Shown here: positions 21,087 through 31,683 of the stretch, piece by piece | How positions within the stretch are numbered: the stretch's first letter is position 1 | Layout of the letters: each line of letters starts with the position of its first letter | NCBI RefSeq assembly: GCF_016888135.1 | Contig: NZ_JACSWB010000143.1 | Location: forward strand, 1-56,845 | DNA: 56,845 bases | Source: Leptolyngbya sp. CCY15150 | GTDB lineage: Bacteria; Cyanobacteriota; Cyanobacteriia; RECH01 | Direction of reading: 5' to 3' | Translations under genes and position numbers: made by a program | Notes under the pieces: model-generated | What the model was told of the DNA's origin: nothing | Databases searched by the model: none | The model's input: only the letters and a program-made list of their open reading frames with translations

Positions 21087-22072
21087 GACGTCAAGAAGTC
21101 CTTATTAACCAATAACTACAAAGCCATCAAATACAGAAAAAACAGAGGAACATGAACCATGTTCTATGTGGGTAAGCATCCAAAACTAGCAGGTCATGCA
21201 TAAAAAACCTGCGGTGTTGCTGAATCTACGGTACGAACCTCTAGCTAGAGATTCTGAAACTCTATGCAACATGTTGCGGAATCATACGGCTATTCAGCAA
21301 CACCGAACCTGCTATCAGGGTCTTGAATGGATCACACCTCTGTTTTATAGATCTCTAGGCAATGGTTTGAAACCTCTGGAAACTTTGATTTCTTGTATAG
21401 AAGAATCAGAGTTCGGCCAAGGTTTCAAACATGTCCTAATGCACCCCAAGGTCTAATTCAATATGTGGACAAAAGGTAAGCATATTGAATGAACGGTGGT
21501 CTTGAAGAGTGCTTACTCTTGCTGGGAGATATACTTACTTTGTAACTCATTGATTAGCAGAGTTCAATGAATACACGTAGAACTTTATCATCCCTTTAAA
21601 GAAAATAGCCTTAAAACAGTTGGCTTTAAAGACTGGAATAGCCTTGAACTTTGCCCCGTAGCTGTTTTTACACGAAAAATATTAAGTGTTGACAACAGGA
21701 CGCATTGTATTGCAACCGTAAAGACCATGTTCCAAAACCACATTCAAAAGCAGCTCACTTTAAATACTTTCTTTAAAATATTTGATCTTAGGGGCAATGA
21801 CTTGTAAAGAGACGGATCTCTAATTATTCTGCTGGGGTGCTATGGAAACAAGAGAGAAAAATCTATGCCTAGGTTATTCTGTACATCGCTGTTGTTGATG
21901 GTCTAGCCTGAAAAGCGATCGCTCTCGTTCAATATCGTGACGTATGATGATCTAAATTAGACTGTGTACCCATGTCGGTACCAATTCTCATTTCGAGACG
22001 AATATTTCTTATTTTAATTGTTGGGTTAATTAGCCCTACTGGTTTAGATGGATAATCAAGGGAGCGATCGCC
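21087..22072. other. Intergenic region upstream of the RTX-type gene
   Basis: The gap is about 986 bases between two minus-strand genes. It contains the MITE at 21212-21305, AT-rich stretches near 21540-21800, and one HIP1 octamer near 21916. An 86-codon frame at 21196-21456 is created mostly by the MITE and is not believed. I see no RNA gene. Confidence 0.45.
21212..21305. mobile_element. 94-bp MITE with 14-bp TIRs and 6-bp target duplication
   Basis: Perfect 14-bp inverted repeats CGGTGTTGCTGAAT (21212-21225) and ATTCAGCAACACCG (21292-21305) bound a 94-bp element. The hexamer AACCTG flanks it on both sides (21206-21211 and 21306-21311) as a target duplication. It has no coding capacity. 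A decayed relative is at 12849-12936. The mobilising transposase family is unknown to me. Confidence 0.82.
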
Positions 22073-28447: not shown

Positions 28448-28699
28448 ATGCAAATTACCCTAAACCTACCTGATAGCCTGAGTCAGACTGAAACCTTTAC
28501 CCAGAGGAACTAGCTCCGAGAAATTGCCATTGCCCTGTTTCAGCAAGAACGGATTTCCCTCGGACGAGCTAGCAGAATCGCCGAGATGGAAATCATGGAC
28601 TTTCAACAACTGCTGTCAGATCGCGATATTTGTGTCCACTACGATGTGGAGGACTTTGCGCAGGATGTTCAGCACCTACGCGATCGGGGCTGGCTATGA
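28448..28699 (+). pseudogene. UPF0175-family antitoxin with an in-frame stop
   Basis: The frame from ATG 28448 reads MQITLNLPDSLSQTETFTQR, then meets TAG at 28511-28513 (codon 22). It continues in the same frame as a convincing UPF0175 antitoxin (EIAIALFQQERISLGRASRI; DFQQLLSDRDICVHYDVED) to TGA at 28697-28699. Family members run without this stop, so the gene is probably inactive unless the TAG is read through or translation restarts at an internal site. UPF0175 genes normally overlap a DUF3368 PIN toxin by ATGA. Here an ATGA at 28696 starts MIIY as a toxin would, but the match ends at once, so the toxin appears deleted. Confidence 0.82.
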
Positions 28700-28893
28700 T
28701 CATCTATGCAGCGTGTTTTAGCCATTGCTCAAAAACCTCAGTCAAAAAAGTCAAGGTAGTCAGTAGAAAGACATCTAACATTGCGTTGGGGTGGGGAATC
28801 AAAAAAGATTATTGGTGTGTGAAGAAGGGCTGATTTTATGGGTACTCTATATCAAATCAAGACTTCTTCTGGAATTGTAGTGAAATCGTAGCA

Positions 28894-30837
28894 ATGACTA
28901 AGAGTAGCACAACACAACTTGGGTATTTCATAAATTCTGATCTATGGCAAGATGCACTGGATCTTCTTAATTTTCAGATCAAACAGAAGAGGAATAATAG
29001 GCACTTTAATACCCTTAGCATGTTTTATTATGAGAAGTTAGATACAAATTGCCTAGATCATCTTACAGAAGAATATTTCAAGACAAAAATATCCAGCAGC
29101 CTTTTTTATGGCTTAAAGGAAGAGTTCTCTGTTCTTTCCTATGTCATACCCAAAACAGGTCTTGGACTAAGAGATTATAAATTTTTTACCTACCCAATGA
29201 GAGCTTTGTACTATTCTATTGGACTTTATTTTCTTAAGTTGTCGCAGGAATTTCTGGTTGAAACATACAAGAAAATTAATAGTATTGAAGCTTTTTATGG
29301 TGGGAACCTCGTCTACAAATCTAACGAGCTCCAAATTAATCCCAAGAACATGTATTACCGTAGCTTTCATGAAAGCTTTAAGTCAAAGATTAAAGAAGAA
29401 ACCAAGCTAGAAAACCCAAATAAAATAGTGCTAAAACTTGATATCGAGAATTATTTCAATGAGCTGTCGATACACATATTATTAAATCTTCTTGGTCGTT
29501 TTATTAAGCCAAGCGTTCAAGCTAACTTGGCTTATGATGTATTCACAAGAGAGCAAATCGTCTGCTTATTCCAATTTATCTCAGGCGGCAAGTCCGGCAT
29601 TCCTCAGTCAGACAATAATATTATTTCAAGCTTTATTGGTTATTTGTATTTGGTTTTTGGCGATCTATTTATTGACGATATACTAAATAGCTATAAACAC
29701 GTTATTGACTCGCACAAAATTATTAGATATACCGATGATATTTATATATCTATAACATTCAAGGATGCTATTGATCAAAAAGATCAGGGACTACTTGTGC
29801 ATTCGATTGCTTCTCAAATTGCCGAAGATCTATATAGTAAGCTTGGTCTTAAGCTTAATCTCAAAACACGGCTTTTTAGATTATCTCAACAAGATGAGAA
29901 AGAAGAGTTATTGAAAAAAATTAAAAAATCATCACTCGGTGACGAGTATTTCAGTGCTACCCAGGAAGAGGAGGAAGAGGAAGAGTCTGAACCTCCTGCT
30001 AAAAACCCCCAAAAGAAACTAGACGAAATATTTGAAGAGTTAGGGAAAATTAAAAATTCCAGAGTAGAAGACTATTTTGTTAGAGATAACTCAGTACAAG
30101 AGGAAATTCTTCAAGAAGTATTTGACAAAAGTGTTGAGCAGATTCTCGATAAGCCAGAGAACAAAGAGAAGATAGAAGAAATTTTTAATGGTTTCGACTT
30201 TAACTTGGTTAAAGCACAACCTCTTGAAATATTAATCATCCTACTTAAAGACGCAAATGCAGTTAATAAGTTTAAGGAATTTTATTTAAGCAAGAAAATT
30301 ATCACCATAGGTGATGCCGACTTGATCGTCAAGTTCTTGTGCCAGACTGACTTTGCTGATCAAGGATTCTTAGAGAAGTTGAGGCAAAACTTTCACATGA
30401 GAAGTATTGTTGACATTTTTCTCGATGGCAAGCTAAATTGCTCTCAACCTGGGTATTATAATCTTACCTGTATGCAGATGAGAAAATTATCTGACATGCC
30501 TGACGTTCTTGAGCAGACGAGATTACGAGTTTTGAGTGAGAAAGGTGCATCTTATTCCGTTGCACTCAATCATTTGGTTAATGAAATCCATGCTGTCTGC
30601 ATAAAGCAAGAACAAGCAAATAAGAAGACTTATGATGTTAATGATGTAGTCAAGTTTTTGCAGTCGAAGGGTATCCATCATGAGGTATGTATAAAAGTCA
30701 GAAACCTATTTGATCGTAGAAACTCTAATCGTGTTTCACATCCAGGTTCTGATGAAAGTCTTGCTTGGGAAGTCACAGAGGAGGAGTATCTGGATTACTA
30801 TAAGCATGTTGGGCGATGCTTAGATTTTCTCTTGTAG
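28894..30837 (+). CDS. Abi-type reverse transcriptase with C-terminal HEPN motif (AbiA-like)
   Basis: The 647-residue protein has an RT palm in the N-terminal half. Motif A KLDIENYFNEL has D183, the template-grip motif is GIPQ (235-238), and the catalytic YTDD is at 279-282 (D281, D282). There is no maturase or group II intron domain, and no retron or DGR features nearby. An acidic linker (E358-E364) and a long helical region follow. The C-terminus has FDRRNSNRVSHPGSDESLAW, where R609-N610 through H616 forms an Rx6H (RN-x5-H) HEPN ribonuclease-like motif. RT plus helical region plus HEPN is the layout of lactococcal AbiA, a phage abortive-infection protein; AbiK and Abi-P2 are relatives. The gene is visibly AT-rich, with no HIP1 octamer, unlike its neighbours, so it was probably acquired. 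Assignment rests on motifs; phage defence is inferred. Confidence 0.82.
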   Translation: MTKSSTTQLGYFINSDLWQDALDLLNFQIKQKRNNRHFNTLSMFYYEKLDTNCLDHLTEEYFKTKISSSLFYGLKEEFSVLSYVIPKTGLGLRDYKFFTYPMRALYYSIGLYFLKLSQEFLVETYKKINSIEAFYGGNLVYKSNELQINPKNMYYRSFHESFKSKIKEETKLENPNKIVLKLDIENYFNELSIHILLNLLGRFIKPSVQANLAYDVFTREQIVCLFQFISGGKSGIPQSDNNIISSFIGYLYLVFGDLFIDDILNSYKHVIDSHKIIRYTDDIYISITFKDAIDQKDQGLLVHSIASQIAEDLYSKLGLKLNLKTRLFRLSQQDEKEELLKKIKKSSLGDEYFSATQEEEEEEESEPPAKNPQKKLDEIFEELGKIKNSRVEDYFVRDNSVQEEILQEVFDKSVEQILDKPENKEKIEEIFNGFDFNLVKAQPLEILIILLKDANAVNKFKEFYLSKKIITIGDADLIVKFLCQTDFADQGFLEKLRQNFHMRSIVDIFLDGKLNCSQPGYYNLTCMQMRKLSDMPDVLEQTRLRVLSEKGASYSVALNHLVNEIHAVCIKQEQANKKTYDVNDVVKFLQSKGIHHEVCIKVRNLFDRRNSNRVSHPGSDESLAWEVTEEEYLDYYKHVGRCLDFLL

Positions 30838-30921
30838 TCTTGGCTAGAGTAAGTTAAGCCACGCTTCCTACTTTGATATTCGGCATTGCTGAATTGTCCG
30901 ATGATTTAGTACTGATAGCTT

Positions 30922-31242
30922 TTACATACCAACTACTATAGCTTGACCTTTAACTACGGCATCTAAAACATCCAAAACCTTAGGTGCTAGAGGCTTAAGA
31001 TCTGCTAAACGATTCGATGATGCTTGTAAAACAACTATTGCGATATCTAATTGAGATAGGTTCTGCTGAAATGACAAGTTGCGATCAACTGTGATGAATA
31101 CATCAAACTCTTGTTCCGCAAGCGCAAGGAGCTGACCGTTCTTCACGCCTGCCCATCCCATCTGTGGAACTGTTTTCACCTCATGGTTAGGAAACTCTCT
31201 CGCAAGTTTGCGATCAATGCACTCATCCAGCAGGATTTTCAT
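30922..31242 (-). CDS. DUF5615 PIN-like toxin of a toxin-antitoxin pair
   Basis: The 106-residue protein starts MKILLDECIDRKLAREF, the hallmark N-terminus of DUF5615 PIN-like proteins, with the first acidic cluster LLDEC. The later block FDVFITVDRNLSFQQNL supplies the second acidic site. Such proteins are predicted ribonuclease toxins partnered with DUF433 antitoxins (VapC45/VapB45 type). The frame is open to 31401, but ATG at 31242 is the correct family start and sits one base after the stop of the upstream DUF433 gene. It converges with the RT gene, 84 bp between their stops. Confidence 0.88.
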   Translation of the reverse strand: MKILLDECIDRKLAREFPNHEVKTVPQMGWAGVKNGQLLALAEQEFDVFITVDRNLSFQQNLSQLDIAIVVLQASSNRLADLKPLAPKVLDVLDAVVKGQAIVVGM

Positions 31243-31243
31243 C

Positions 31244-31462
31244 CTATGCCACCATGCCAACAAGTCGTTTTCCAGCTTCTTCCAGTAGGGTGATGACCTG
31301 TTCTTGAGTGACAGTCGGAAACCCATCCAAAAAATCGTTGATAGATTCTCCTGCTTTGAGATAGTCCAGCAGCGTCTGAATAGGAACCCTAGTACCAGCA
31401 AAAACTGGAGTACCGCTCATAATGTCAGGAGATGCGCTGATGACTGGGGAGTTTTCAAGCAT
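31244..31462 (-). CDS. DUF433 (VapB45-like) antitoxin
   Basis: The 72-residue protein matches DUF433: ISASPDIMSGTPVFAGTRVP at the start, then IQTLLDYLKAGESINDFLDG, and a final FPTVTQEQVITLLEEAGKR helix. This family is a winged/HTH-type DNA-binding antitoxin paired with DUF5615 toxins. The stop TAG (31246-31244) is one base before the toxin ATG, so translation is coupled. It is likely autoregulated as in other such pairs, but no operator is identified. It forms the right-hand end of the HIP1-free islet. Confidence 0.9.
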   Translation of the reverse strand: MLENSPVISASPDIMSGTPVFAGTRVPIQTLLDYLKAGESINDFLDGFPTVTQEQVITLLEEAGKRLVGMVA

Positions 31463-31683
31463 ACGTCGTTGACCTCTAGACTTCGTACCTACAGTCTACC
31501 AATTCTCCACAGCAGCATCGTCTAAGATGGCTTCAGGGTAAGCGATCAACGCAGTTCAACAAGTATTGACAACAACACTTGCGGGGCAGAGTTGCTATTG
31601 CTGTTCATTTTGGCTTACGAGATAATTGCTTACACAGATTGGGCAGAAGGTCGTTAAGGGCGATCGCCCCTAGGAGGACATGT

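Follow-up and report, generated by a model that had tools for sequence, protein, structure and literature searches.

The open reading frame at positions 28894-30837 (+) of the window, the 56,845-nucleotide contig of Leptolyngbya sp. CCY15150 analysed here, is a full-length, intact, single-gene cyanobacterial AbiA, a member of the RT-HEPN phage-defence family. The frame runs for 647 codons from an ATG start with zero internal stops, and the NCBIfam AbiA model (TIGR04499) matches residues 11-643 of the protein over model positions 1-615 with 511 bits (E=4.6e-153). This score is about twice the curated cut-off of 250 bits and far exceeds that of every RT model of group II, retron or CRISPR type, the next NCBIfam models being those for group II RT (29.9 bits) and retron RT (19.9 bits). 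PADLOC likewise assigns the protein to AbiA (PDLC03741, E=4.3e-83), which leads by about 200 bits and surpasses the generic RT models by tens of orders of magnitude, while Pfam yields a sub-threshold RVT_1 match only. The match to the AbiA family is full-length, and no difference that would exclude the protein from it was found. The genome carries one copy of AbiA. A first-pass annotation of the same DNA had read the gene as an AbiA-type RT-HEPN fusion in a cyanobacterium; both parts are borne out, the family by TIGR04499, PADLOC and the top fold match described below, and the host by 13 phycobilisome-family matches in the genome. The motifs that it named lie exactly where it had placed them (D183 in KLDIENYF, GIPQ at 235-238, YTDD at 279-282 and RNSNRVSH at 609-616), and the acidic linker it described corresponds to an acidic stretch at about 359-367. 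That the frame and its motifs are beyond chance follows from the E-value of the TIGR04499 match, the dN/dS of 0.086 against the nearest homolog and the invariance of the RT and HEPN motif residues in 14 proteins. Broken copies do occur in some relatives (G178, G417, G582 and G552), but there is next to no chance that the window copy is itself a decayed gene that has lost its function, given a frame open over all 647 codons, a complete set of active-site residues and the low dN/dS.

The predicted structure supports the assignment over the whole length of the protein. An AlphaFold2 model built from a 14-row alignment reached a pLDDT of 83.8 and a pTM of 0.86 (a 5-sequence input gave a poor fold, with a pLDDT of 48). 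The top four matches of this model in a Foldseek search of the PDB are the four chains of Lactococcus lactis AbiA, 8OZ7 (E 4e-15 to 1e-14, TM 0.65-0.74), followed by Abi-P2 (E 2e-7) and then by DRT6, DRT9, AbiK and DRT4. The match to 8OZ7 spans the whole chain, with a TM of up to 0.74; residues paired in the fold alignment are only about 15-16% identical, and neither the window protein nor a 5-row profile picked up 8OZ7 when PDB sequences were searched. The comparison with AbiA and AbiK folds that had been proposed as a check of the family assignment therefore places AbiA first and AbiK lower.

Four regions can be delimited along the gene. An RT-like polymerase domain of fingers and palm (residues ~1-330, 28894-29883, +), defined by the model and by invariant residues, carries D183 and RYTDD at 278-282. 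It is followed by a disordered acidic linker (residues ~331-371, 29884-30006, +) that holds Y352 (codon 29947-29949) and is delimited by model pLDDT and the homolog alignment; the sole long low-confidence stretch of the model (346-368, pLDDT<50) falls inside it. An alpha-helical domain takes the place of the thumb (residues ~372-525, 30007-30468, +), being all helical in the model and in the same order as in 8OZ7. The chain ends in a HEPN domain (residues ~526-647, 30469-30834, +) with the motif FDRRNSNRVSHP at 606-617. Because a Pfam search of the C-terminus by sequence alone found no HEPN, this last assignment rests on the fold, the motif and the full-length family model. The helical C-terminal fold that had been anticipated is present, the model being all-alpha over residues ~526-647, and a helical domain in the thumb position followed by a C-terminal HEPN thus occurs in a confident model that matches 8OZ7.

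Conservation was assessed in an alignment of 14 intact cyanobacterial AbiA proteins, comprising the window protein and 13 others with identities down to 23%, all of which match TIGR04499. Invariant residues concentrate at the RT active site, where D183, R278, D281 and D282 are found in all 14 proteins, and at the HEPN motif, where FDRRNxNxxSHP (606-617), including RNxNxxSHP, is equally unchanging. The window's RNSNRVSH (609-616) is an R-x6-H motif that conforms to the R-x(4-6)-H pattern; the lactococcal counterpart is RNSNPVSH (PMC11077055). Purifying selection, measured by region against the nearest homolog, is similar in the RT (dN/dS 0.065) and HEPN (0.067) domains. The linker around Y352 differs in length and sequence among the 14 homologs; Y352 itself is kept in 13 of them, placed about +68 to +77 relative to the second of the catalytic Asp residues, the sole exception being L045 (G505). 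Within the acidic region only this tyrosine, which immediately precedes the poly-Glu run, is conserved, the run itself being common only to the window protein and its nearest homolog.

The mechanism of the family has been worked out in L. lactis, whose AbiA synthesises untemplated DNA linked to the protein itself (PMC11077055). Priming there uses Tyr298, the only one of the two that the family conserves, and Tyr303; both sit in a flexible loop (290-310) that joins the RT domain to the helical one. The substitutions D240N and Y298F/Y303F abolish both polymerisation and defence (PMC11077055). The lactococcal HEPN domain mediates the dimer, and its deletion abolishes dimerisation and polymerase activity (PMC11077055). 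The window protein possesses a counterpart to each part of this enzyme, which makes a shared mechanism the best inference: the window AbiA very probably acts as a standalone anti-phage DNA polymerase that performs protein-primed, untemplated synthesis as a dimer held together by HEPN. By extension from L. lactis, AbiA would dimerise through HEPN, the first dNTP would be attached to the linker tyrosine Y352, a long untemplated single-stranded DNA would be made that stays covalently on AbiA, and this polymerisation would block phage growth. Y352 is likely the counterpart of Tyr298. As identity is about 15-16% and PDB sequence searches missed 8OZ7, the priming role is transferred by position and conservation rather than by direct residue alignment.

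HEPN domains are usually RNases, and the first-pass annotation had cast the domain as the toxic RNase effector of a single-gene abortive-infection system. Such an arrangement, in which infection is sensed or marked through the RT activity and HEPN thereupon becomes an active, toxic RNase that brings the cell to a halt, was also suggested in a 2013 prediction (PMC3710099). An R-x6-H motif with N after R that is invariant in the 14 cyanobacterial proteins and closely matched in L. lactis would suit a toxin, as would the strong purifying selection on HEPN (dN/dS 0.067). The lactococcal HEPN domain, however, showed no RNase activity, R581A, H588A and the double mutant all kept full defence, and infections at high MOI (MOI 10) gave no indication of cell death or suicide (PMC11077055). 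An RNase-toxin role is thereby contradicted for L. lactis AbiA, the one member tested, and a HEPN toxin is quite unlikely to be the effector here; the invariance of the motif can also stem from a part played at the dimer interface, in structure or in nucleic-acid binding. The description as a one-gene defence system stands, while its suicidal component finds no backing in the MOI 10 assays. Invariance of the HEPN motif is nevertheless the point least well explained by a structural account. A structural role does not obviously demand that a motif be invariant across two subfamilies that are about 24% identical, and on this ground the AbiA HEPN might be a genuine conditional nuclease, missed since the lactococcal enzyme was assayed untriggered, or against phages that the polymerase alone stops. 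We regard this as unlikely, and protein-primed polymerisation by a HEPN-held dimer remains the preferred reading.

An origin of the gene as an ordinary retroelement RT, from a group II intron, retron or DGR, is hinted at by weak matches to RVT_1 and group II RT models (28-30 bits). These are dwarfed by the AbiA score of 511 bits (group II RT 29.9, retron RT 19.9), the fold search favours 8OZ7 by a wide margin, and no intron, retron RNA, other Rfam element or surrounding repeats accompany the gene: an Rfam scan of the window returned no family except one tRNA-Ser, and no substantial repeats were found around AbiA. The probability of a retroelement RT is accordingly negligible, as the first-pass annotation had already held in separating the gene from retron, group II and DGR enzymes. 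Some defence RTs, namely DRT2, DRT9 and DRT10, use ncRNAs, and a DRT-like system requiring a flanking ncRNA template would find its best candidate in a 76-nt upstream leader (about 28803-28877), the only conserved flank, which is 78% identical in the nearest homolog. The leader is absent from the other homologs, folds no better than shuffled sequence (z -0.01) and has no Rfam match, for which reasons an ncRNA was rejected. L. lactis AbiA, moreover, is a template-free Class 1 enzyme, and a DRT-like dependence on RNA is very improbable. Nothing at the locus thus points to an RNA of retron, DGR or DRT type, and the lack of a conserved flanking RNA fits template-free synthesis. A leader peptide (17-codon ORF, 28838-28891) was also considered and rejected, as the nearest homolog has a stop there.

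Comparison with characterised systems places the protein closest to L. lactis AbiA (8OZ7; PMC11077055), with which it shares a single-gene organisation, the order of RT-like, linker, helical and HEPN domains, the RYxDD and RNSN-VSH motifs and a tyrosine in the flexible RT-helical linker. It differs in its sequence (about 15-16% identity in the fold alignment), in a longer linker with a poly-Glu run, and in being chromosomal in a cyanobacterium and known from sequence and model, whereas the lactococcal gene lies on a plasmid. AbiK and Abi-P2 (7R07, 7R08) belong to the Class 1 Abi polymerases as well and likewise have an RT-like and a helical domain, but they are without HEPN, assemble into trimers or hexamers and are much poorer matches to the model. 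Next-best fold matches include the DRT4, DRT6 and DRT9 enzymes in the PDB; DRT9 requires an ncRNA, and none of the three is known to carry a C-terminal HEPN. A further AbiA-related protein, AFZ16538.1, is presumably from the cyanobacterium Microcoleus PCC 7113. It has already been reclassified as AbiA (PMC8934634). The view that such systems are little studied is apt for cyanobacteria and not for the family, since the architecture and the HEPN nature of the AbiA-CTD were described in 2013 (PMC3710099), structure and mechanism were published in 2024 (PMC11077055), and NCBIfam and PADLOC already hold AbiA models. The window AbiA is a distant member of a family that is already solved, and thus largely ordinary. 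For a family in which one structure has been solved, it contributes an intact and divergent branch from cyanobacteria, made up of two subfamilies, and the homolog set makes two questions testable: whether the linker tyrosine is a universal AbiA primer, and what keeps the HEPN motif constant although it seems to be dispensable.

Among cyanobacteria the distribution of AbiA is sparse. Among 386 genomes sampled across the phylum, three, including the window's own, score above the TIGR04499 cut-off; within one order, 16 genomes out of 342 give AbiA profile matches, and four of the 16 hold only broken or fragmentary copies. Another full copy is found in Candidatus Paraprochloron terpiosi. Nine of the 14 intact proteins form a window-like subfamily, in which the other eight are 41-85% identical to the window AbiA, and five form a second subfamily about 24% identical to it; G505 carries one AbiA of each (L035 and L045). 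The broken or fragmentary copies, in G178 (L032), G417 (L043/L046), G582 (L042) and G552 (L044), suggest that AbiA may often be lost after gain. A tblastn search with the window AbiA retrieved no relatives from plasmids and phages, nor did IMG/VR contain any. When a sister homolog was used as the query against plasmids, weak RT-domain matches only were obtained, mostly from Lactobacillaceae. On one Lactiplantibacillus plasmid (L027:1294-3352) a SLATT-domain gene overlaps an AbiA-like RT gene, a pairing unlike RT-HEPN.

The chromosomal context favours movement of AbiA between genomes as defence cargo, with a patchy, horizontally spread distribution. A close congener (G002), with an NdhF 99% identical to the window's, lacks AbiA: the two sequences run in parallel at about 91% identity as far as 28522 and match again from 31511 onward (84-93%). 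This break and the G002 ORFs delimit a variable cargo segment at 28523-31510 that holds AbiA and a DUF433/DUF5615 pair. The DUF433 and DUF5615 (PIN-like) genes overlap, lie directly downstream of AbiA (30922-31462, -) and converge with it; the pair is probably of toxin-antitoxin type. The same site in G002 is occupied by a SocA/Panacea-type gene and a small gene with a weak ParE-like match only, a replacement pair that appears toxin-antitoxin-like. Horizontal transfer is further favoured by mismatched identities between AbiA and NdhF, which are 85% and 74% between the window and G591, a member of a different family, and 69% and 75-77% between the window and G146 and G339. Neighbouring genes also differ among AbiA homologs: read by eye from translations, they include a methyltransferase, a putative restriction gene and a Fic-like gene at L009, a large helicase-like ORF at L022 and NDH genes at L023. 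AbiA can thus be seen here as mobile cargo for defence, lodged at a chromosomal site whose content varies.

Several smaller features were also observed in the window. A small-gene remnant at 28449-28718 (+) contains an in-frame TAG and resembles, by eye, a UPF0175-type antitoxin; G002 retains its first part only. A pattern search of the genome for a segment-edge repeat found nothing. At 21205-21310 lies a palindromic element of about 95 bp with GGTGTTGCTGAATC ends, which has 38 matches in the genome and so appears to belong to a MITE-like repeat family. Pieces related to this element are present at the edge of the AbiA segment (30882-30894) and at the matching edge in G002 (L058:12698-12737).
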